In this document: piece by piece, positions 5,909 to 55,433 of the stretch
How positions within the stretch are numbered: position 1 is the first letter of the stretch
Layout: each line of letters begins with the position of its first letter
Assembly (NCBI RefSeq): GCF_014298075.1
Contig: NZ_CP060418.1
Coordinates: 682,001-746,000, forward strand
From: Enterobacter sp. JUb54
GTDB lineage: Bacteria; Pseudomonadota; Gammaproteobacteria; Enterobacterales; Enterobacteriaceae
Reading direction: 5' to 3'
DNA: 64,000 nt
Notes under the pieces: generated by a model
Database searches by the model: none
What the model saw: only the letters and a program-made list of their open reading frames with translations
Told to the model about the DNA's origin: nothing
Made by a program: the position numbers and the translations under genes

Positions 5909-7463
5909 ATCCGCCTTCGCCATGCTCTGCCAGCCATTGCGCAAACGCCGCGACCGGCATCGGTCTGGCGTAGTAGAACCCCTGCAGGACATCAACCCCG
6001 TGCTGCTGCAGATACCGCGACTGAGCTGCGGTTTCAACCCCCTCGGCAACCGTCAGGATGTTCAGGCGGCGTGCCAGGGCAATGATCATGTCGGTCACCG
6101 TCGTATTCACGCTATCGACGCCGATGGCGCTGGTGAAGGATTTATCAATTTTCAATACGTCCGGGCGCAGCTTTTCCAGCCATGACAGTGAGCTATTTCC
6201 GGTACCGAAATCATCAATCGCCAGCATGACTCCTTTAAAATGCAGCAGCTCCGCCATGTGGTGGTCTCCCTCCTGCAGCACATCGCGTTCGGTCAGTTCC
6301 ACCACCAGCTGCTGCACCGGGTGGGCGCTGAACCACAGATGATGCAAATCGCGCATCAGTTCGCCGTTGGCAAAATGGCGGGCGGCGACGTTAATCGAAA
6401 TATGGAAGTTTTTATCCTCGGGGAACTGCGATAGCTGGCGGGCGGTTTCCTTCAGGACATAGCGGGTGAGGGGCACAATTAAGTTCGCCCCTTCCGCGAG
6501 AGGAATGAATACATCGGGAGGGATATTTCCGCGACGCGGATTGTTCCAGCGCAGCAAAATCTCGACGCCGACGCATTTTTGCGACCGCAGATCTTTTAGC
6601 GGCTGGCACCACAACGTAAATTCACGGGCGGCGATCCCGAGGCTGATCTCCCGGGCGAAGCTCATTCTCCCCGCCGTAATCAGCCACATCATGCCACCCA
6701 GCATCACGCTGAGGATCAGCGCCAGCGGCAGTGCGCCAGGAAGTTCCGCAAGGGCGATCGCCGTGGCGCCTGGGCCGCTGACGTTAATCGCGAACGGAAA
6801 CTGGGTTGACTGCTGGTGGTAAATCATCTTCTCGCCTGGCGGCACTTGCTGCTCGGTGATGCCAATACCATGAATAAAATTCTGTGCGCCGACGCTTAAC
6901 CCGATACCGGTAATCAGGGGTGATTTTGCGGCGAGAATTAACTCCCCTGGCAGTTCGATATTGATGACGATCATCACGCCATCGTCGCTGTTTAATCGGG
7001 AGGGATACCATTGCACTAATACCGGCGAGCCGAGCAGCAGCGAGTGGTCTGTTGAAAGCATCAGCAATGGCTGAGGAGAAGGGAGCGCCGACTGGAGCTG
7101 ATGAATGGCAACGTTACGGTCGCCAAAGATACTGGAGCAATACAACGTCCGGGACTTTACCAGGGCGATGGAGCGCACTGTTTGCAGCGACGCCGCCAGT
7201 TTGCGCAGCGGCAGACGGACATCCTGGCACGGTTTCCCCACCAGCTGTAGCAAGGGATGTTGTTGCTCTGATAAAGGGCGCAGCATTCTATCCATGGCCA
7301 CCACCATCTGATGAGTAGTGCTCTGGATACGTTGCTGATTTAAACTACGCTGTGAAATAAATCGGATAACCAGTGTGGTCGTTAACGTCAACAACGCCAC
7401 AATCAAACAAATGACAACGCGTTTACGGCGGTAAGTCGAAATGACTTTCTGAGCATTGTGCAT
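5907..7463 (-). CDS. pdeD: PdeD, CSS-motif c-di-GMP phosphodiesterase
   Basis: Membrane-bound EAL-type phosphodiesterase that hydrolyses cyclic di-GMP, 518 residues. An N-terminal helix (about 15-38) and a second helix (about 235-258) flank a periplasmic CSS domain containing LYCSSIFG. The cytoplasmic EAL domain shows EILLRW, LTERD, AIDDFGTGNSS, KIDKSF and AEGVET, so catalytic metal ligands are retained. In E. coli, the CSS cysteines of this family set activity through DsbA/DsbB-linked oxidation and proteolysis. The ATG at 7461-7463 is chosen over one 14 codons upstream because it aligns with E. coli YoaD. Confidence 0.93.
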   Translation of the reverse strand: MHNAQKVISTYRRKRVVICLIVALLTLTTTLVIRFISQRSLNQQRIQSTTHQMVVAMDRMLRPLSEQQHPLLQLVGKPCQDVRLPLRKLAASLQTVRSIALVKSRTLYCSSIFGDRNVAIHQLQSALPSPQPLLMLSTDHSLLLGSPVLVQWYPSRLNSDDGVMIVINIELPGELILAAKSPLITGIGLSVGAQNFIHGIGITEQQVPPGEKMIYHQQSTQFPFAINVSGPGATAIALAELPGALPLALILSVMLGGMMWLITAGRMSFAREISLGIAAREFTLWCQPLKDLRSQKCVGVEILLRWNNPRRGNIPPDVFIPLAEGANLIVPLTRYVLKETARQLSQFPEDKNFHISINVAARHFANGELMRDLHHLWFSAHPVQQLVVELTERDVLQEGDHHMAELLHFKGVMLAIDDFGTGNSSLSWLEKLRPDVLKIDKSFTSAIGVDSVNTTVTDMIIALARRLNILTVAEGVETAAQSRYLQQHGVDVLQGFYYARPMPVAAFAQWLAEHGEGG

Positions 7464-45877: not shown

Positions 45878-47998
45878 TCAGAAGTCGTAGCCGACGGTGG
45901 CGGTGATGCTACGCTCGGCGCCCCAGTAGCAGTTGCCGGTGCCGTAGCAGCCGGAGACATACTCCCGGTCGCTGAGGTTGTTGGCATTGACCTGAACAAA
46001 AGCCCCTTTCAACGACGGCGACCAGACGCCGAGATCGGCGCGAACCATCGCATCCAGCAGCGTTACCGACGGCAGACGCTCGGTGTTGGCATCATCTGCC
46101 CACTGTTTACCAATATAGCGCACGCCAGCTCCCGCGCTGATCCCGGCCGGGAACTGATAACGCGCCCAGAATGAAGCCATCTGATCCGGCGTGAGCTGCG
46201 GGGTATTGTCGTTGGTGCCATCTTTGGTGTCCTGGAAGCGCAGGCGGTTCCAGGTGTAGGAGGCCAGGGTGCTCAGCTCAGGCGTAATCTGGTTATGCAT
46301 CTCCAGCTCGACCCCTTGCGAGTGAACTTTGCCGGCCGGAATAAAGGTGGCGGTGGCGATATTCGGATCGCGGGTGGCCACGTCTTTCTGGGTTAAATCA
46401 TAGATGGCGATACTGTACATATCGCGGGTCCCCGGAGGCTGGAATTTCAGCCCCGCTTCCAGCTGTTCGGCGGTGGTCGGTTTCAGCAGCGTTCCGTCGG
46501 CGCCCGGCAGCATCGCCGGTGTAATGGCCTGGCTGTAGCTCAGGTACGGCGAGAGGCCGTTTTCCAGGGCATACAGCAACGACGCGCGACCGCTGATATG
46601 GTCATCGGAACGGCGGCTGGAGGTGCCGAAGGTATCGCTGACCTGCTGCGAGACGATGCGATCGTAACGGCCGGAAACATCAAGATGCCAGCGATCCCAC
46701 ACCATTTCATCCTGCAGATAAATCCCGGTCTGATAGTAGCGACGATTATTGTTATCGCTGTAGGTCACGGTGTGTCCGGTTTGCGCGGTATAGCCGCTAA
46801 ACGGATCGAGCGGCGAGGCGCTGCCGGCACCGGTCCACAGATCGTTGCGGAAGCGGTGATATTCCGCCCCGAGGATCAGCGTATGGGCCAGTTCACCGGT
46901 GGTGAAGTCGGCGCGCAGGCGGTTGTCGGTGGACCACGCATCCAGCGATCCACGAGAGCCGCTGTAGCCGCGGGCCAGCATATCGCTGTCGCCAACCCAG
47001 CCGACCTGGTAGACCTGATCGAGGGAGACGTTGGTATGGGTGTAGCTCCCGGCGGAGTAAGCCGACCAGGTATCGTCGAACTGATGGCTAAACTCGTAGC
47101 TGTAGATCTGCTCGCGACGCTGATAGCCGTCGGACGGATCGCCTTCATTGGTGCTGGTGGAGAGCTTGCGCCCGTTGTGCGCGTAGCGGGTGCCGTCCAG
47201 CGGCAGCGAGCCGTGGTAGCCGCCCGACGGATCTTTTTGCAGGTAAGCGCGCAATAACAACGAGGTGTCGGCGTCCGGCTGCCAGAGCAGGGACGGGGAG
47301 ATGGCATAACGCTCTTCACGGGTATTGTCGTACTGGGTGTCGCTGTTACGCGTCATCCCGATGATCCGGTACGCCCACTGGTCGTTAATGGCATCGGTAT
47401 AATCGAAGGCGGCCCCTTTGGTGTTTTGCGTCCCGCCGCTCAGGCGGAAATGGCCTTCGGAAGTAAACTGCGGGCGTTTCGAGGTCAGGTTAACCACGCC
47501 GCCGGGCACGCTCTGGCCATACAGCGCCGAAGAGGGGCCGCGGATCACATCAACCCGCTCGATAAACCACGGGTCAATCTGCAGGACGTTGTGGCTCCCG
47601 CCATCGCTCATCAGACGCATGCCGTCGAGGAACAGGTTATCCACGTCGCCGCCGTGATAGCCGCGCAATGACACCGTATCAAAACGGGTCGCGCCGCCGC
47701 CAAAGCTGGAGTACACGCCTGGGGTATATTCCAGCGCCTGGCTGATGGTGTTGGCCCCCTGGTCATCCATTTGCTGTCGGGTGATCACCGAGACCGACTG
47801 CGCGGTGGTGATTAACGGCTGGTCGGTTTTGGTGGCCCCGGCGGAGGTTTTCGCGCTATAGCCCTCGGTGGGGGCGGTGGCGGAGTCAACGGGTTGCGCG
47901 GTGACGACCACGGTCTCTTCCGCCACGCTGGCGAGAGGGAAGGCGGCGGCCAGGGCGCACAGGAGCGCGGAGCGTTTAAAGGTGGTGCGGGCGATCAT
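45878..47998 (-). CDS. TonB-dependent siderophore receptor, FoxA/FhuA-like
   Basis: Outer-membrane receptor of 706 residues. Signal peptide about 1-26; the TonB-box-like ETVVVTA follows; the plug domain contains QALEYTPGVYSSFGGGATRFDTVSLRGYHGGDVDNLFLDG and IERVDVIRGPSSALYGQSVPGG. The 22-strand barrel ends in ATVGYDF, and CYGTGNCYWGAERS near the end resembles the C-terminus of hydroxamate receptors. Best guess is a ferrioxamine- or ferrichrome-type receptor. It stands alone, with a Fur-like box about 85 bases upstream, and is separate from the adjacent molybdenum-type operon. Confidence 0.88.
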   Translation of the reverse strand: MIARTTFKRSALLCALAAAFPLASVAEETVVVTAQPVDSATAPTEGYSAKTSAGATKTDQPLITTAQSVSVITRQQMDDQGANTISQALEYTPGVYSSFGGGATRFDTVSLRGYHGGDVDNLFLDGMRLMSDGGSHNVLQIDPWFIERVDVIRGPSSALYGQSVPGGVVNLTSKRPQFTSEGHFRLSGGTQNTKGAAFDYTDAINDQWAYRIIGMTRNSDTQYDNTREERYAISPSLLWQPDADTSLLLRAYLQKDPSGGYHGSLPLDGTRYAHNGRKLSTSTNEGDPSDGYQRREQIYSYEFSHQFDDTWSAYSAGSYTHTNVSLDQVYQVGWVGDSDMLARGYSGSRGSLDAWSTDNRLRADFTTGELAHTLILGAEYHRFRNDLWTGAGSASPLDPFSGYTAQTGHTVTYSDNNNRRYYQTGIYLQDEMVWDRWHLDVSGRYDRIVSQQVSDTFGTSSRRSDDHISGRASLLYALENGLSPYLSYSQAITPAMLPGADGTLLKPTTAEQLEAGLKFQPPGTRDMYSIAIYDLTQKDVATRDPNIATATFIPAGKVHSQGVELEMHNQITPELSTLASYTWNRLRFQDTKDGTNDNTPQLTPDQMASFWARYQFPAGISAGAGVRYIGKQWADDANTERLPSVTLLDAMVRADLGVWSPSLKGAFVQVNANNLSDREYVSGCYGTGNCYWGAERSITATVGYDF

Positions 47999-48099: not shown

Positions 48100-48262
48100 A
48101 CTCTTTGCGTTATCAAGTGATGATTGCGTAGCGTGACAATCAAAACCCATGAAAAGGTTACTGTTTACTGAGTACATCTGGGACAGCGCGGGGCGTGCGG
48201 GACAGTCGACGGGATGACTGGCTACCAGATCTGGTAGCCAGGGTGAACGAAAACCAGGGGAG

Positions 48263-48904
48263 TTACGGACGACTGTCTAAGCGTAGTAACGCAATCGCCC
48301 GCCAGGGCGCGGCAAGGTAGGGCATTGCCGATAGCGCCAGCAGCTCTTCCCTGGTGCCGCCGTCACCGAAGATAATCGATTGAACCCGGCTGAGCGGCCA
48401 CTCTGTGGCGGAGCGGTCGATCAGCCGGAATGTATCACCGCAACGTGTTTCTCCGGGCCTGACAACCCGATAAAACCAGCCGTTGCGCGACAGGTTGTGC
48501 ATCAGCATCGGCGCATCAGGATCCTGTAAGCGCGTTGCCATCGTCTGACAGGCAACGCGTCCCCAGCTGATTTGCACTTCAGCATCGCCAAGGCGAAACA
48601 CATCGCCGGGACAGACGTCGTGTTCCGTCATCCCGTAAGTGGAAAAGTTTTCGCCAAACAGACCGGTATACAGATGCTGCCCGGAGAGTGCCGGGTATCG
48701 TTCACGCCAGAATTCATAATGTTCGCGCGCATAGTGCATCAATGCACAGTCCGGATCCTCAAAATGTTCCTGAACGCCGTTGTCTGCCTCCAGACCATGG
48801 GCACTGAGGTACACGCTGCCGCTTAATGCGACTTTGCGTAGTGAACCATCCGCCTGGCGTTGATTGCCGAGTATCGAACGTAGCACCACGTTAACATCTG
48901 TCAT
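48263..48904 (-). CDS. MOSC-domain protein (YiiM-like), last gene of the ModE-linked operon
   Basis: A 213-residue MOSC-domain protein. YiiM-type segments are LSAHGLEADNGVQEHFEDPDCALMHYAREHYEFW, LFGENFSTYGMTEHDVCPGDVFRLGDAEVQISW and the Cys in GRVACQTMATRL. YiiM/YcbX relatives use molybdenum cofactor to reduce N-hydroxylated compounds (family knowledge), so a Mo-linked role is expected. The ATG at 48902-48904 is preferred; an ATG five codons upstream is equally possible. A longer frame overlapping the receptor gene is rejected. It begins 40 bases after the receptor stop, in the same direction. Confidence 0.85.
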   Translation of the reverse strand: MTDVNVVLRSILGNQRQADGSLRKVALSGSVYLSAHGLEADNGVQEHFEDPDCALMHYAREHYEFWRERYPALSGQHLYTGLFGENFSTYGMTEHDVCPGDVFRLGDAEVQISWGRVACQTMATRLQDPDAPMLMHNLSRNGWFYRVVRPGETRCGDTFRLIDRSATEWPLSRVQSIIFGDGGTREELLALSAMPYLAAPWRAIALLRLDSRP

Positions 48905-48944
48905 TATAGGGTTCTCCATATAGCTCCGCAGGGCGGAGAATGAA

Positions 48945-50915
48945 TCAGAAGGTGTATTCCACGCCGGCCCAGAAGTTTCGGCCCTCTTCGATAAACCCCT
49001 CGCTATAGTAGTAGCGGGTATCAAAGAGATTATTGATTGAGGCGTTGAGGCTAAAGCCGTGACCAATGGCATAGTCAGCACGCAGGTGAGAGATAGCGAA
49101 CCCTGCCGCTGTTTGCGAACCGTCGCTGTTGCTGTAGCTGGAAGAACGCGCCTCTTCAGAGAGCGTAACCTTGAGTGACGCCGTCGGTTTAAACGTCAGC
49201 CAGGCGTTGAGCGTTTGGTCCGGCAGGCCGGTAATTTTGCCCACGTCTTGTTGTTTAGGATTGCTGTGGACCCAGCCATAGCTTAGCCCGACGTCCAGCC
49301 ACGCCAACGGCGATCCCTTAATGCCCAGATCAAGACCGGTATAGTCGACCTGGCCGCTGTTCTGATTCTGAACCGTATCGGCATCAATATTAATCGACAA
49401 AATTGCGTCGCTGACCTGTTTGTACCAGGCGCTGATTTCATAGGCCCAGCTATCGCTAAGATGACCGTTCCAGGTCAGGTCAAGGCTGCGGGCTCGCTCG
49501 GGTTTCAGCTGCGGGTTGACCAACGAAATCTGATCTTTGGCCGGTTTAGTCGTGGTGTAGCGCTCTTTTAGCGTCGGAAAGCGGGTGCGATCGGACCAGG
49601 AAAACGCGAGGGTATCCTGATTAGCAAAATGATAGCGGGCCAGCGTTTCCCAGTTGAACGCATTCTGCCTGTTGCCGTCATAGCGGGTCAGGCTGCCGTT
49701 TTTTTCATGTTTTATGCCCTCAATACTGTTGCGCCAGTCGTAGCTCAACCCGACGACGATATCGAGATTGTCCATCGCCTCCCATTGATATTCGCTGGCG
49801 AATGACCAGGTACGATCCTGGTAACGATCGTAGGGCCCGTCACTGGTACTTTTTTCTCGGTGGACATCATCTTTCCAGTTGACGGCAAAGGCGAGCTGAT
49901 CGTTATGACGAACGTCGGCGGAGAGCTGTAGACCCGCGCCGGTGCTGTAATCGTTATAGCGGCTGTAGATGCCATTTTTGCTACGCAGATCGCCCAGCGA
50001 GTTATACATCATCAGGGTATTTTTGAAGGTGTCGTGATACAGGCGGCTTTTTAGCGTGAAACGCTCGCCGAGGTGCGTTGTGCCTTGATAGTAGTAGCTC
50101 TCTTTATCGTACTCCGGCCACTGCCAGTATCGGGCTTTCTGCGAACTGCTCCCGGCATAGGGTGGGTTCTGTTTCTCGCCATCCTGCTTAATCCAGGTCA
50201 AGGCGTACTCATCATTGCCTCGTGGGGTGAAGCCGAGCTTCACGATGCCGCGTTTATCATCGCTCGCCGAATTTGTCATTTTGCCGTCTTCACCGGCGAC
50301 CGGGTTGGTTGTTCCATGCGGCAACCCCAGGACGTCGCGCTTCAGGCGGCTGCCGCTGAGCTGGAAATAGCCCAAATCATTGCTTGCGCCAAATGAGGCA
50401 TGCGTGTCATAGGCATTGTCTTCACTGCGGCTCCAGCCTTGGCGGTAGCCGATGTTGGCTTCCAGGGGCTTGGTCGGGCGAGGTGTCGTAATATTGATAG
50501 TACCCCCCATCTGGTTGGGGCCTTGAAGCAAGGAAGAGTAGCCTTTCGATACTTCAACTGAGGCCACGTCCGAGGTGAGAAAGCGCCCGAGATCGAGATT
50601 GCCATCGTAGGGAACATAAACCGGTACACCGTCGAAAAATACGGGTACCTGGCGGCTGTCAAAGCCGCGCACTTTTACCTGCAGTTCATTGCGGTTACCT
50701 GATTTTTGCAACACCACGCCAGGTACAACCGAAAGGGCATGTGCAACATCCTGTTTATCCAGACTCTGGATAGTCTCCTGCCCGAGAATGCTGATCGTTG
50801 TTGCGGGAATGGCGCTGGACCATACGGTCATTGCCTCTTCCGGGCGTTCCGCCCACGCGAGCTGACTGACCAGCAGACCGATCGAGATACAAAGGTACTG
50901 TTTCCTGACTCTCAT
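48945..50915 (-). CDS. TonB-dependent receptor of the ModE-linked operon
   Basis: Outer-membrane receptor of 656 residues. Signal peptide ends about residue 22 (LAWA); EEAMTVWSS is the TonB-box region; the plug contains QDVAHALSVVPGVVLQKSGNRNELQVKVRGFDSRQVPVFFDGVPVYVP and LQGPNQMGGTINITTPRP. The barrel carries NLFDTRYYYSEGF and ends VEYTF. Sequence does not identify the ligand; it looks neither like FepA nor BtuB closely. It follows modD by 25 bases and AAGGAA precedes its ATG. Context (ModE site, ModD, ABC transporter, MOSC) suggests a molybdenum-containing ligand. Confidence 0.88.
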   Translation of the reverse strand: MRVRKQYLCISIGLLVSQLAWAERPEEAMTVWSSAIPATTISILGQETIQSLDKQDVAHALSVVPGVVLQKSGNRNELQVKVRGFDSRQVPVFFDGVPVYVPYDGNLDLGRFLTSDVASVEVSKGYSSLLQGPNQMGGTINITTPRPTKPLEANIGYRQGWSRSEDNAYDTHASFGASNDLGYFQLSGSRLKRDVLGLPHGTTNPVAGEDGKMTNSASDDKRGIVKLGFTPRGNDEYALTWIKQDGEKQNPPYAGSSSQKARYWQWPEYDKESYYYQGTTHLGERFTLKSRLYHDTFKNTLMMYNSLGDLRSKNGIYSRYNDYSTGAGLQLSADVRHNDQLAFAVNWKDDVHREKSTSDGPYDRYQDRTWSFASEYQWEAMDNLDIVVGLSYDWRNSIEGIKHEKNGSLTRYDGNRQNAFNWETLARYHFANQDTLAFSWSDRTRFPTLKERYTTTKPAKDQISLVNPQLKPERARSLDLTWNGHLSDSWAYEISAWYKQVSDAILSINIDADTVQNQNSGQVDYTGLDLGIKGSPLAWLDVGLSYGWVHSNPKQQDVGKITGLPDQTLNAWLTFKPTASLKVTLSEEARSSSYSNSDGSQTAAGFAISHLRADYAIGHGFSLNASINNLFDTRYYYSEGFIEEGRNFWAGVEYTF

Positions 50916-50940
50916 TTTTATTATTCCTTTATCAGTTTTT

Positions 50941-51795
50941 TTATTTTGATGCCTTCGGCTGCAGTCGAACCTGAATATCAGCCGGCGGCGCGTACCACGG
51001 CGCCGAAGTTATAAACAACTCAATTCCACAATCGAGGTATTGCCCCAGGCTGCCCAGAGTGATCCCGCCGGTCAGCGCCAGCGTGCAAGCAGGGGCAATA
51101 TCGCGAGCGTGACCGGCGACCTGACGGGCCTGTTCGGGGGTAAATTTATCCAGTTGCAATATGTCGGGCTGCGCCTGCAGCGCGGCCAGTGCTTCGGGGA
51201 GGGTGTCGGCTTCGACCGCCACTTTCTTTTCAGGTGAGCGCTGGCGCAGCAGGCTAATCATCTGTGCCCAGTCGCCGTTATCCGCGAAAAAATGCCGGTG
51301 GTTGGCAAATAACAGCAGGGTTTCGGCACAGCCGGCGCGGTGGATCAAGCCACCTGCTGCAACGATGGCCTGCGTACCGAGCAGGCGGGTGCCGGGAATC
51401 GCCTTACGAGTACAGGCGATGTGCGCATCGGGAAGACGGGCATGCAGCAGGTCCAGCATCTGCGACACATAGTTTGATACGCCGCAGCTCCATTCGAGCA
51501 CGTTCTGCGCTGCTTTCCAGCCCTGATGCAGCGCGCTGGCGCTGCCGCTCGCCCGTAGCAACAGCCCGCAAGGTGCGGCCTGTTCGCCATCTGCAAGGGA
51601 GGTCGTGACCGTCAGGCCAAGGCTACGCAGCATCTGGGACGCAGGAGAAATGCCGCTGACGCAACCCCCCTGGCGATGACGAAATTCCATGATTCCGGGC
51701 TGGCTACCGATCCCCAGCGCCCGGGTTGTCAGGTCGCCACCCTGAATATCCTCCATCAGCCATGCATCGGTGAGCGCCTGGGGGAAGTAGATCAT
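50941..51795 (-). CDS. modD: ModD, QPRTase-like protein of molybdenum loci
   Basis: A 284-residue relative of nicotinate-nucleotide (quinolinate) pyrophosphorylase, the ModD subfamily found beside molybdate transport genes. Features are LMEDIQGGDLTTRALGIG at the start, LEWSCGVSNYVSQMLDLL, ACTRKAIPGTRLLGTQAIVAAGG with the TRKxxPG phosphoribosyl-enzyme motif, and LALTGGITLGSLGQY. Its reaction is unknown; phosphoribosyl transfer to a small ring acid is plausible. The ATG (51793-51795) overlaps the methyltransferase stop (ATGA), with GGAG seven bases upstream. Confidence 0.88.
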   Translation of the reverse strand: MIYFPQALTDAWLMEDIQGGDLTTRALGIGSQPGIMEFRHRQGGCVSGISPASQMLRSLGLTVTTSLADGEQAAPCGLLLRASGSASALHQGWKAAQNVLEWSCGVSNYVSQMLDLLHARLPDAHIACTRKAIPGTRLLGTQAIVAAGGLIHRAGCAETLLLFANHRHFFADNGDWAQMISLLRQRSPEKKVAVEADTLPEALAALQAQPDILQLDKFTPEQARQVAGHARDIAPACTLALTGGITLGSLGQYLDCGIELFITSAPWYAPPADIQVRLQPKASK

Positions 51796-52601
51796 GCCGT
51801 CACTCCGCAATCCCAGGAGATGAGCGCCCAGTCCCGGGTGGCGGGCGCGATGGTTTGTGGGTCTTGTTGCTGATACCAGTGCTGAAGCCGCGCGCGGTCT
51901 TCATCGTTCAGCGCGCCAAGCGTCCAGCTGACGTTCTCCTCAAAACGCGCAAAAGTGGTGTTATCCCCCTGGCAGTTACCGCCGCGGATAAAATCGACCC
52001 GCGCCTGAATTCCCATCTGATACAGCACGTTCAGCGCGTAGATGTAGTTAGGCAGCTCGATGACTTCGCGTCCTAATGCCCGTTGGATGGCCGGTGACAT
52101 AAACGTCGGGCTGACAAGGTGGGTGGTATAGACGCGCAGTCGCGCCTGGCGATTGAGCTTCGTCATTGCTTCGCGCATATCGCTCACCAGCGTTGAGCGC
52201 GAGGCGACCGCGATATCGCAGCGGGGAATGTCATCCCATGTGGCCTCCCAGGAACGACAGTGCCAGTGCGCATGAGTGACGTTCATCTGCGCAGCGCGCG
52301 CTCTGGCGACATCCAACATCTTCGGGCTGTAATCAACGCCGTGGACCGCGCGGAGTTTGTCAGCCAGTGCCAGGGCGACAGTACCCGGCCCGCAGCCCAT
52401 ATCGAACAGGGTCTGGGCGCCGGTTAAGTCGATTTTTTCCAGTAATTGTACGAGATAACCGTCTGCTGGCCGCGCGCAGTTGACGGCCATTTTTTGCGCC
52501 CTGGCGTCCCAGTGGGCGGGGGTCTTTTCCGTGCGTCCGGCAATCTTGAGCTGTTGTCGGTACAGGTGGGCAAAATCAATATCATCAATAAGCATCATCA
52601 T
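51792..52601 (-). CDS. Class I SAM-dependent methyltransferase
   Basis: A 269-residue Rossmann-fold methyltransferase. Motif I is TLFDMGCGPGTVALALA (about residues 65-80), followed by the acidic motif II residue in VHGVDYSPKMLDVA. The C-terminal part (NYIYALNVLYQMGIQARVDFI) is less typical and may bind substrate. Substrate is unknown. Three Met codons in a row leave the start uncertain by two residues; GAGGA lies just before them. It overlaps the ATPase gene upstream and modD downstream by four bases each, so it is made with the transporter. Confidence 0.85.
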   Translation of the reverse strand: MMMLIDDIDFAHLYRQQLKIAGRTEKTPAHWDARAQKMAVNCARPADGYLVQLLEKIDLTGAQTLFDMGCGPGTVALALADKLRAVHGVDYSPKMLDVARARAAQMNVTHAHWHCRSWEATWDDIPRCDIAVASRSTLVSDMREAMTKLNRQARLRVYTTHLVSPTFMSPAIQRALGREVIELPNYIYALNVLYQMGIQARVDFIRGGNCQGDNTTFARFEENVSWTLGALNDEDRARLQHWYQQQDPQTIAPATRDWALISWDCGVTA

Positions 52602-53362
52602 TCCTCAAAGTGAACGTTGCCGAGATGGCGGTGGATTTGGGCGGGGGTCACGCCGTAGAGTCTGGCGAGGTTATTCGGTTGCAGCTGCGTGCGCGGTTCA
52701 CCCAGGTCTGTCGTCCCGTCTGGCTCCACGCTGAGGACCGTGTCGACGATGGCGAGGGCGTGCAGCGGATGATGCGTTGCCATCAGCAGCGTGATACCGC
52801 GCCGGCGAAGCTGTTGTAGGGTATCGAGCAGGCGAATTTGATGACCAAAGTCGAGGCTTGAGGCCGGCTCATCGAGCAGCAACAGCCGTGACCGTTGTGC
52901 CAGCGCCCGGGCAATAAGCGTCAGCTGACGTTCACCGCCGCTCAACGTCGCGTAACTTCTGCTGGCGAGGTGGGCGATGCCGAGGGCATCCAGTTGTGCA
53001 AGGGCAATATCCCGTTCGCGGCTGGAGGGTTGGGAAAAGGTGCTGATATGCGGGCTAAGTCCCATGAGTACCATATCAAGGACATGAAAGGTGAACACGG
53101 CGTCATGCGCTTGCGGTACCCAGGCAATGGCGCGTGCGCGTTCGCGGGCGCACATCTGACTGATATCCACATTATCGATCAGCACCTGACCTGCACGCAG
53201 GGGAAGAAGGCCGAGGATCGATCGCATCAGGGTGGTTTTACCGCTGCCGTTGGCCCCCAGCAGGCAGCAAATCGAACCAGGCGATAGCGAAAATGACACC
53301 TCGCGAAGCACCACCCGACCCGGATAACCCACGTCAGCGTGCTGTACCCTGAGCATCGTCAT
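52598..53362 (-). CDS. FecE/BtuD-type ABC transporter ATPase
   Basis: Cytoplasmic ATPase of 254 residues. Walker A is LLGANGSGKTTL, Q-loop WVPQAHD, signature YATLSGGERQLTLIARAL, Walker B LLLLDEPASSLD, and the switch His is in LMATHHPLHA. This is the siderophore/cobalamin importer class (type II), also used by MolBC molybdate importers. It overlaps the permease gene upstream by four bases. Confidence 0.92.
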   Translation of the reverse strand: MTMLRVQHADVGYPGRVVLREVSFSLSPGSICCLLGANGSGKTTLMRSILGLLPLRAGQVLIDNVDISQMCARERARAIAWVPQAHDAVFTFHVLDMVLMGLSPHISTFSQPSSRERDIALAQLDALGIAHLASRSYATLSGGERQLTLIARALAQRSRLLLLDEPASSLDFGHQIRLLDTLQQLRRRGITLLMATHHPLHALAIVDTVLSVEPDGTTDLGEPRTQLQPNNLARLYGVTPAQIHRHLGNVHFEE

Positions 53363-54351
53363 GGGCGGCTCCCACGAATCAGTAGTACCAGGAAAAACGG
53401 CGCGCCAACAAACGAGGTCAGGATCCCAAGCGGGATCTCGGTCGCGCTCAGGCCACGCGCCAGGGTGTCAGTGAAGAGCAGCAGAATTGCGCCGAGCCCC
53501 ATTGATACCGGCAGTAGACGCTGGTGATTACTGCCAATGAGCAGGCGCCCCGCGTGCGGGATGATGAGCCCGATCCAACCAATAATCCCGGCCACGGCCA
53601 CGGCGCTGGCGGTAGTCAGGGTGGCACAAACCACCACTATCAGCCGCAAACGTGTGACATCAATACCCAATGAACGGGCTTCATCATCAGACAGCGTCAA
53701 CAGGTTAAGGCGCCAGCGCAGCAGCCATAGCGGCAGACACCCGACGATCATCAGCGGGGCGGCAAAGGTCAGATCGCGTGGGGTAATGTCCGCTAACCCT
53801 CCCAGCAACCAGAAGGTGATAGAAGGGAGCTGTGTATAGGGATCGGCAAGGGTTTTGATTAATGAAATGCCAGCGCCGCATAAGGTTCCCAATGCAATGC
53901 CCACCAGTACCAGGGTGAGCGCCGGATCGCGCCGCGTGATGACGCGGGACAAGGCCCCGACTCCCGCCACCACCAGCAGACCGCCGCAAAAGGCAAATAA
54001 CTGGATAAAGAATGTCGATAAGCCACACCAGATAGCAAGGCAGGCACCCAGACCCGCACCGGCGGCAACTCCAAGGATATCCGGCGAGACCAGCGGGTTA
54101 CGGAACATCCCCTGGTAGGCCGTCCCCGCCGCACAGAGGGCCGCGCCGATGGCCAGTGCGGCCCCAATACGCGGCAGGCGTATCTGCCAGAAAACGACAC
54201 CGGCCTGCGGTGGAAGCGAGGCGCTGTCAGGCACAAACAGGAGATCGAACAGACCTCCGACGGTGAGATCCCATGGCCCGGTGAGTAAGGCGCCCATAAT
54301 GGTCAGGAGCGCGGCAAGCAGCAAGATCGTGCTAAGCGTGGATATTTTCAT
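53359..54351 (-). CDS. FecCD/BtuC-type ABC transporter permease
   Basis: A 330-residue inner-membrane permease with about ten helices. FecCD-family segments are LPRIGAALAIGAALCAAGTAYQGMFRNPLVSPDILGVAAGAGLGA, LLGGLADITPRDL and the C-terminal GWIGLIIPHAGRLLIGSNHQRLLPVSMGLGAILLLFTDTLAR, plus the cytoplasmic coupling region around DDEARSLGIDVTRLR. The family imports siderophores, haem, cobalamin and, in MolB, molybdate or tungstate. Four-base overlaps on both sides show tight coupling. Confidence 0.92.
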   Translation of the reverse strand: MKISTLSTILLLAALLTIMGALLTGPWDLTVGGLFDLLFVPDSASLPPQAGVVFWQIRLPRIGAALAIGAALCAAGTAYQGMFRNPLVSPDILGVAAGAGLGACLAIWCGLSTFFIQLFAFCGGLLVVAGVGALSRVITRRDPALTLVLVGIALGTLCGAGISLIKTLADPYTQLPSITFWLLGGLADITPRDLTFAAPLMIVGCLPLWLLRWRLNLLTLSDDEARSLGIDVTRLRLIVVVCATLTTASAVAVAGIIGWIGLIIPHAGRLLIGSNHQRLLPVSMGLGAILLLFTDTLARGLSATEIPLGILTSFVGAPFFLVLLIRGSRP

Positions 54352-55373
54352 ACGCTATGCATCAGCGTGGCGTAGCGGGCAGGGGTCAGCGTGCTGTGCC
54401 AGAAGATTTCGCTATAGCGGGTCAAATCTTCCTGAAGCGAACGCTGTATCCGCGGGTCAAGCCAGGCGTGCAGCCGACGCATTCCTGCAAGACGATTAAT
54501 GCCCGGCGGGGCATCCAGCCAGCCGAACGGCAGACCGTCCAGCAGCATAACCTGGCGTTTTGCCACGGCGGTGACGCTCTGCCACGCCGGATCCTGCAGG
54601 ATGTAATCGCGGGTGGCGGCATTTTGGGTCAGGATCAAGTCCGGCTGCCACGTCAGCAGATTCTCCAGTGAGACCTGGGTCAGCCCACTGCGCCCGGCAA
54701 CCCGAGCGACGTTTTCCAGCCCCAGCAGTTCCGCCGCTTCGGTATGCAGCGAGCCGGCCAGTCCGGTCTCCAGCCCTTTAGCCCCGCGTGCCGCATAAAA
54801 GCGTGTTCGAGCCCCGGCTCCGGTTGAAAAAGCCTGGGCATCGGCGATAAATCTCTGCGCCAGCGCCGCCTGTTGCCGCGTACGGTCTTCGGTGCCGACG
54901 ATTTCGCCAATCGCTAGAAACTGTTCGGCAGATGACGCCAGCGTTCCGCCGATCAATACCCACGGAATGTGACTGCGTTCGCTGATCCGCTGGGCCTGGG
55001 AGAGCCAGCTACCGTCGGTATCGCCGCAGTCCACCACCAGATCTGCCTCAAGCGCGAGCAGCGTTTCCAGCGACAGCGTACTGGCGTGTCCGGCCAGTCG
55101 GCCCAGTTTGGGAAGCCGGGCGATTTCCCCCGGGAAAGGTACATCCGGGAAGCGAGAAAAGTCGAAAGAGGAGAACCCCAACAGTTTTTCCGGCGCGGCG
55201 GCTAGCAGCAGCATGTCAGCCGGTGAGCCTGCGCTGATTATCCGCCGGATACCGGTGGGAGAGGGGCGATTACCGATGCTGAAAACCACAGGTGAGGCTG
55301 CCGTAGCCTTCAGGCTGGGGAAGCAGAGCAGGAAGCTGAGTGACTGGAGGAACGTCCGTCGCGAAAGAGGCAT
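54348..55373 (-). CDS. Tat-exported periplasmic binding protein of the ModE-linked operon
   Basis: A 341-residue cluster-B (FepB/BtuF/MolA-type) binding protein and first gene of the operon. The N-terminus MPLSRRTFLQSLSFLLCF has an SRRTFLQ twin-arginine motif, so it is exported folded through Tat. Conserved-looking ligand or interface segments are GSPADMLLLAAAPEKLLGFSSF, DLVVDCGDTD and the C-terminal PFGWLDAPPGINRLAGMRRLHAWL. Ligand cannot be read directly, but a ModE-type operator 33 bases upstream of its ATG points to molybdenum. Confidence 0.88.
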   Translation of the reverse strand: MPLSRRTFLQSLSFLLCFPSLKATAASPVVFSIGNRPSPTGIRRIISAGSPADMLLLAAAPEKLLGFSSFDFSRFPDVPFPGEIARLPKLGRLAGHASTLSLETLLALEADLVVDCGDTDGSWLSQAQRISERSHIPWVLIGGTLASSAEQFLAIGEIVGTEDRTRQQAALAQRFIADAQAFSTGAGARTRFYAARGAKGLETGLAGSLHTEAAELLGLENVARVAGRSGLTQVSLENLLTWQPDLILTQNAATRDYILQDPAWQSVTAVAKRQVMLLDGLPFGWLDAPPGINRLAGMRRLHAWLDPRIQRSLQEDLTRYSEIFWHSTLTPARYATLMHSV

Positions 55374-55405
55374 ATGTTTCCATCCTGAAACAAATTGATT
55401 AAATT

Positions 55406-55433
55406 ATCGCTGTATATTTACATATATAGCGAT
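55406..55433. promoter_or_regulatory. ModE operator of the TonB/ABC/ModD operon
   Basis: Inverted repeat ATCGCTGTATA (55406-55416), six bases, TATATAGCGAT (55423-55433); the arms pair at 10 of 11 positions. This matches the ModE-molybdate operator pattern (CGnTATATA-N6-TATATAnCG). It overlaps the AT-rich promoter region of the operon, with its nearest edge 33 bases from the first ATG, a position typical of repression when molybdate is plentiful. Confidence 0.88.

Follow-up and report, generated by a model that had tools for sequence, protein, structure and literature searches.

A ModE-linked operon with a TonB-dependent receptor in Enterobacter sp. JUb54: a probable uptake system for molybdenum

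The subject of this analysis is an operon of Enterobacter sp. JUb54 (contig NZ_CP060418.1) that joins a TonB-dependent outer-membrane receptor to an ABC importer and three enzymes behind an operator for the regulator ModE, and that we read as a probable system for the uptake of molybdenum. The window is the whole stretch of DNA analyzed, 64,000 nucleotides corresponding to positions 682001-746000 of the 5.3 Mb host genome, and the operon spans 48263-55373 of it. The features are listed in the direction of transcription, with SBP standing for solute-binding protein and SAM for S-adenosylmethionine.

55406..55433: ModE operator, the 28-base palindrome ATCGCTGTATATTTACATATATAGCGAT, deviating from the E. 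coli consensus at one of its 20 fixed positions
54348..55373, minus strand: cluster-B SBP (Peripla_BP_2) with a twin-arginine signal
53359..54351, minus strand: FecCD-type permease, best PDB relative HI1471 (MolB)
52598..53362, minus strand: ABC ATPase, from the ABC_tran family scan
51792..52601, minus strand: class I SAM methyltransferase (Methyltransf_25) of a small family that accompanies this transporter
50941..51795, minus strand: ModD, quinolinate-phosphoribosyltransferase-like (TIGR01334)
48945..50915, minus strand: TonB-dependent outer-membrane receptor, whose E. coli relative is published as prrA / ECs1693
48263..48904, minus strand: MOSC protein, YiiM-like (MOSC and YiiM_3-alpha domains)
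48218..48241: perfect 24-bp palindrome CTGGCTACCAGATCTGGTAGCCAG directly past the last gene, without a T-run, as read from the sequence

All seven genes are open; the first five (SBP to ModD) overlap by 4 bases at each junction, and gaps of 25 bp and 40 bp precede the receptor and the MOSC gene, respectively, which agrees with the preliminary description of this DNA as seven same-strand genes joined by four-base overlaps or short gaps. Its seven family assignments were matched by the family scans of the operon proteins (Peripla_BP_2, FecCD, ABC_tran, Methyltransf_25, ModD, Plug plus barrel, MOSC plus YiiM_3-alpha). The palindrome past the last gene is a possible terminator.

The core of the operator lies at 55408-55431, 34 bp ahead of the SBP start codon, and is extended to its full length by the ends ATCG...CGAT. 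The E. coli ModE consensus used for the comparison was ATCGNTATATA-N6-TATATANCGAT, as given in the accessible text of PMC545781. None of 200 single-base shuffles of the promoter equaled the site, and the ModE palindrome claimed for this promoter from the letters alone is thus confirmed. Across the host genome the 15-position core pattern was found with at most one mismatch at nine places, the window site included, and the reversed-pattern control at none, all of its 12 strand hits having two mismatches. When up to three mismatches were allowed, the hit number in the window was matched by 17 of 100 window shuffles, and in the whole genome the real and control patterns were alike (66/53 vs. 68/69), so that only the strict class of at most one mismatch is counted here. 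Strict places adjoin modA (496.6 bits, NF007958), moaA (357.6 bits) and dmsA (1861.3 bits); these three are textbook ModE targets, and their recovery means that the pattern does find ModE sites in this genome. Others lie about 300 bp from a NarU/NarK transporter gene (941.3 bits), by a set of genes for an SBP_bac_11 binding protein, an ATPase and a permease of ModB type (233 bits, TIGR01581), by an ortholog of MolA (467.6 bits to HI_1472) and by a second TonB-dependent receptor, which is FemA-like. A perfect site at L075:4716-4739 lies downstream of a yghX-type gene, and no start of a likely target is evident close to it. The genome encodes a full-length ModE at 2430168 (NF007957, 484.7 bits against a cut-off of 369; Mop domain, 116.2 bits).

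The MolA ortholog belongs to a MolABC ortholog of the host genome (L072:4750-7554; 326.8 bits to HI1471), where a one-mismatch ModE site stands 27 bp ahead of the SBP gene; ModE is on this sequence a candidate for the regulator of MolBC-A. The FemA-like receptor (178.9 bits to FemA) is accompanied by a third Peripla_BP_2 SBP (L073:4834-7979, host genome 1400833-1403978) and has a one-mismatch ModE site 103 bp upstream. At E up to 1e-100, a search of 247 genomes of the order yielded 3 with such a receptor, the host included. A 40%-identical FemA-like receptor in another genus (G126; L085/L093) has an adjacent SBP and a perfect ModE site 37 bp upstream; a receptor-SBP-ATPase-permease operon of the FemA-like kind in G060 is without a ModE site, and no ModE match was found in the G060 genome. 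The second ModE-linked receptor may mean that the host imports two chelates.

To survey relatives of the operon, we searched 394 genomes of the order and 369 of the class with an SBP profile; 12 and 5 of them, respectively, gave matches (E up to 1e-60 for the order, 1e-40 for the class), the host being counted in both. The 11 other loci from the order and 4 from the class, with L005, L011 and the window, make up 18 loci. Two belong to the window's genus, two to Escherichia, two to f6, six to f9, two to f27 and four to other groups; these loci are related and therefore represent fewer than 18 independent cases. The matrix used to score sites was trained solely on the modA, moaA, dmsA and narK-type sites of the host genome and was controlled with 200 dinucleotide shuffles. 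In 13 of the 18 loci a site scoring at least 19.6 precedes the SBP gene or the receptor gene, a score that no shuffle reaches. The tally is clear sites in these 13 loci, weak ones in three and none in two.

The position of the site varies with the arrangement of the genes. In L054, L061 and L058 the SBP and receptor promoters each have their own site; in L063, L064, L081 and L082 the only site is at the receptor promoter and the SBP promoter has none; where the receptor gene lies inside the operon (window, L055, L005 and L011), it has no ModE site of its own. The internal receptor gene of the window scores 5.3, which none of the 200 shuffles equals and which was not counted as a site; the shuffle count alone is therefore insufficient. 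No receptor was found in the 19 kb of L056, and the receptor matches in L060 and L062 are only partial. The operon of the E. coli type strain sits between treA and ymgE, with CGCTATATGTGTAAGTATATAGCG ahead of the SBP gene. In a distant gammaproteobacterium of 65% G+C (L081), modE itself (6493-7302) and the receptor gene are transcribed divergently; the modE product scores 161.8 bits against the ModE equivalog, under the cut-off of 369, with the DNA-binding domain (99.8) and Mop (116.8) both above theirs. A two-mismatch site at 7438-7461 lies between the two genes with a receptor start at ATG 7465, the beginning of a stretch that resembles a signal peptide; with a start at 7402 it would lie just within the receptor reading frame. 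A ModE-domain match is present in 18 of the 19 genomes examined, 15 exceeding the cut-off. Control of the operon by ModE is strongly supported by the sequence comparisons, and the ModE control and molybdenum link first proposed for this DNA are well borne out by genome-wide, comparative and gene-neighborhood evidence.

The transporter points in the same direction. The best PDB match of the window permease is HI1471 (MolB) at 210.3 bits, followed by one at 156.9. Two permeases of the host, taken as controls, match FhuB best: L102, which exceeds the threshold of the enterobactin permease family, gives 201.9 bits to FhuB and 92.1 to HI1471, and L105 gives 174.3 and 116. The host genome has 13 FecCD matches, 12 of which gave loci, one being the window's own; among the 11 others the closest paralog of the window permease is the MolB ortholog (43.7% identity, 192 bits; next 156). 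On these scores the permease is of MolB type and the two siderophore-type controls are not. We considered the SBP as a MolA ortholog and rejected it, its profile score being 57.1 bits vs. 467.6 for the MolA ortholog of the host. The SBP had also been described as Tat-exported (twin-arginine translocation); all 18 SBPs in the alignment keep the twin-arginine pair, and export by Tat is the likely consequence. The receptor has the Plug (PF07715, 72.4 bits) and barrel (PF00593, 106.7 bits) domains, and its PDB matches are weak (33.6 bits and less). Its N-terminus carries EAMTV, which we compared by eye with the TonB-box motif. The closest P. aeruginosa receptor found, P0237, is 46% identical to it and is presumably PA2911.

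A further link comes from an Eggerthellaceae metagenome-assembled genome (L006:3-7922), in which permease, ATPase, SBP and methyltransferase lie between two MoeA-type genes. The order is a MoeA-type gene truncated where the contig ends, a regulator-like open reading frame, the permease, ATPase, SBP and methyltransferase, the second MoeA-type gene, and a DUF364/DUF4213 gene ('putative heavy-metal chelation'). The first MoeA-type gene scores 67.4 bits for MoCF_biosynth and 24.7 for MoeA_N, the latter under its cut-off; the second scores 93.7 for MoeA_N and 72.9 for MoCF, and 189.8 bits for NCBIfam MoeA, below the cut-off of 440. The best PDB match of the permease is again HI1471 (228 vs. 172 bits for the next), and neither a receptor nor a ModE-pattern site was found at this locus. 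Its gene order would be an independent link of the transporter type to molybdenum.

Three enzymes travel with the transporter to different degrees. The methyltransferase lies beside it in 10 of the 18 loci (window, L005, L011, L054, L055, L056, L061, L063, L064 and L081) and in L006, and occurs in 4 of 299 genomes of a phylum sample at E up to 1e-25, the host counted. A lone relative with one internal TAA is found at L101:9591-10385 (G033, family f9), and the 15.8 kb fetched there contain no such transporter. ModD (TIGR01334, 398.8 bits against a cut-off of 178.85) forms part of the cluster at the window, L055, L005 and L011 (four loci) and lies nearby in L058 and L083. It shares the TRK and HR motifs with the solved quinolinate phosphoribosyltransferase 4kwv but has Lys94 in place of an Arg and Phe163 in place of a Lys; among aligned ModD sequences the first position is Lys in 8 of 8 and the second is not Lys in 8 of 8. 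We take the replaced Arg and Lys to be the quinolinate-binding residues of these enzymes, and an assignment of ModD as NadC was rejected on these two substrate-side positions. At L016:1456-3782, in another family of the order, ModD adjoins a permease and an SBP that by eye are of a different kind, apparently a different transporter partner. The MOSC protein is encoded within or beside the cluster in 4 of the 18 loci (window, L055, L063 and L064), and Cys119 is invariant in the 4 aligned. It was not accepted as YiiM (6-hydroxylaminopurine reductase), as it scores 119.1 against a cut-off of 294 bits for NF008577, with the MOSC and YiiM_3-alpha domains present. The three enzymes may share the task of altering the ligand after uptake.

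We propose, with a probability of about 0.72, that the operon is a TonB-dependent system for the uptake of molybdenum (or tungsten) repressed by molybdate-loaded ModE and that the molybdenum species is most likely an organic chelate. The receptor would carry this species over the outer membrane, and the SBP would hand it to the MolB-like permease and ATPase. Modification or cleavage of the ligand by the three cytoplasmic enzymes (methyltransferase, ModD and MOSC protein) would probably then set molybdate free. What can be read directly from the sequence is the gene set with its operon layout, the conserved ModE operator, a permease of MolB type, and the moeA-type and modE neighborhoods of relatives. 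From them we infer molybdenum (or tungsten) as the cargo with good but not complete force; repression would be the sign of the ModE control, and the roles given to single enzymes are conjectural. A chelated or organic form, rather than free molybdate/tungstate or the chelate of another metal, is a reasonable choice and the best one, because a TonB-dependent receptor is present here and the other molybdate-type importers have none in the stretches fetched around them.

Several observations weigh against this proposal. The ModE sites of L062 (12.1; 0 of 200 shuffles), L057 (12.5; 3 of 200) and L059 (10.8; 8 of 200) are weaker, and the matrix scan before the SBP and receptor genes of L080 and L083 gave none; the genomes of these last two (G616 and G538) are among the three whose ModE match is not over the cut-off. 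The SBP is only a distant relative of MolA (57.1 bits to the family profile; 26.6% identity to the host ortholog), and the receptor falls under every NCBIfam cut-off that it matched, heme, siderophore and B12 receptors being among the matches. A Zur-like match in the window promoter (8 of 22 mismatches) was reached by 2 of 200 shuffles, those in five other promoters being reached by 26 to 186 of 200. The P. aeruginosa operon of this kind, PA2911-PA2914, is described in the available text of PMC11481552 as controlled by Zur and as a reported importer of pyochelin-cobalt, and specificity may therefore shift.

The cargo could be free molybdate or tungstate, or a weak complex, with the receptor just raising affinity at very low supply and the enzymes serving an unrelated task. 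This has in its favor that MolB, the nearest relative of the permease, belongs to a system reported as a low-affinity molybdate carrier. We nevertheless consider this unlikely, as ModA, a second ModB-type transporter and the MolABC ortholog are also encoded by the host, each behind a ModE site; tblastn with three receptors found no receptor relative in the 6 to 14 kb fetched around these three importers, and the methyltransferase accompanies the transporter in 10 of 18 loci. Small oxyanions are also known to cross porins.

Alternatively, the chelate of another metal (Fe, Co or Zn) would be the cargo and ModE control would merely couple its uptake to the demand for molybdoenzymes, as the P. aeruginosa operon and the iron uptake proposed for the E. 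coli cluster (in the part of PMC1890555 concerned) might suggest. Fur boxes were not above chance in any of the six promoters tested, the best in the window promoter having 9 of 19 mismatches and being equaled by 159 of 200 shuffles, whereas ModE sites recur and modE and moeA-type genes adjoin the clusters of relatives; we regard this alternative as very unlikely. A separate gene downstream of the operon (45878-47998) encodes a FoxA-like ferrioxamine receptor (661.3 bits, under the cut-off of 1300); upstream of it is a modest Fur-like match (6 of 19 mismatches; 10 of 200 shuffles equal it), and no ModE site was found there. Least credible of the three is a pterin-type fragment or precursor of the molybdenum cofactor as cargo, for which the MOSC protein and the MoeA-type neighbors in L006 could be cited, since none of the seven genes matches a family for cofactor breakdown or salvage above cut-off and MOSC occurs in only 4 of 18 loci.

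Within the proposed uptake of chelated molybdenum, one pathway can be sketched tentatively, and we think it possible though doubtful as a whole. The ModE-controlled receptor would import the molybdenum chelate whole; the methyltransferase would cap a donor atom, ModD would phosphoribosylate an aromatic acid ligand, and the MOSC protein, likely a molybdenum-cofactor enzyme, would reduce an N-hydroxyl donor, so that the chelator of this molybdophore is destroyed and the metal freed.

Iron, B12 and zinc are among the cargoes known to enter by TonB-dependent uptake, and the operon, if our proposal is right, would offer a genetic handle on the entry into the cell of molybdenum bound by catechol chelators. 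A receptor under ModE control would also shift the point of control to the outer membrane. The cluster is carried by gut bacteria, including many E. coli, and has so far been filed under iron uptake; the E. coli operon has a match in 2,102 of 5,426 complete E. coli genomes (at least 80% of the operon in 2,094), in which the cluster would be re-labeled from iron to molybdenum.

The cluster is already in print. According to the accessible text of PMC1890555, ECs1693-ECs1697 of O157:H7 are homologous to prrA-modD-yc73-fepC of a CFT073 pathogenicity island, credited there with a proposed role in iron uptake (Guyer et al. 1998, as referenced in PMC1890555), and ECs1698-ECs1699 are additional transport genes. 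The gene set of ECs1693-ECs1699 (S-loop#83, OI#55) and the neighbors ymgE and ycgR match our E. coli locus; the text on this putative iron uptake cluster (PMC1890555) makes, in that part, no mention of ModE. Within the reach of the searches made, the novelty seems to rest on the regulator and the metal. The E. coli type-strain proteins are 71.8% (receptor), 68.6% (ModD) and 73.4% (methyltransferase) identical to those of the window, and its operon, unlike that of the window, is without the MOSC gene. P. aeruginosa PA2911-PA2914 is likewise a receptor with an ABC importer, reported for a metal chelate, but differs in its Zur control, and methyltransferase, ModD and MOSC are not named in its description in the available text of PMC11481552. 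Molybdenum uptake is described, in the parts of PMC7759655 and PMC4031551 that treat it, in terms of inner-membrane importers. H. influenzae MolBCA (HI1470-HI1472) shares the FecCD-type permease, the ATPase and a cluster-B SBP; the SBP of the window is, however, not orthologous, the window adds the receptor, methyltransferase, ModD and MOSC protein, and MolABC proper is a second locus of the host (L072). Fur-controlled siderophore systems are alike in architecture (TonB-dependent receptor, SBP and FecCD importer), whereas the window has a ModE operator in place of the Fur box and a receptor below all listed NCBIfam cut-offs.

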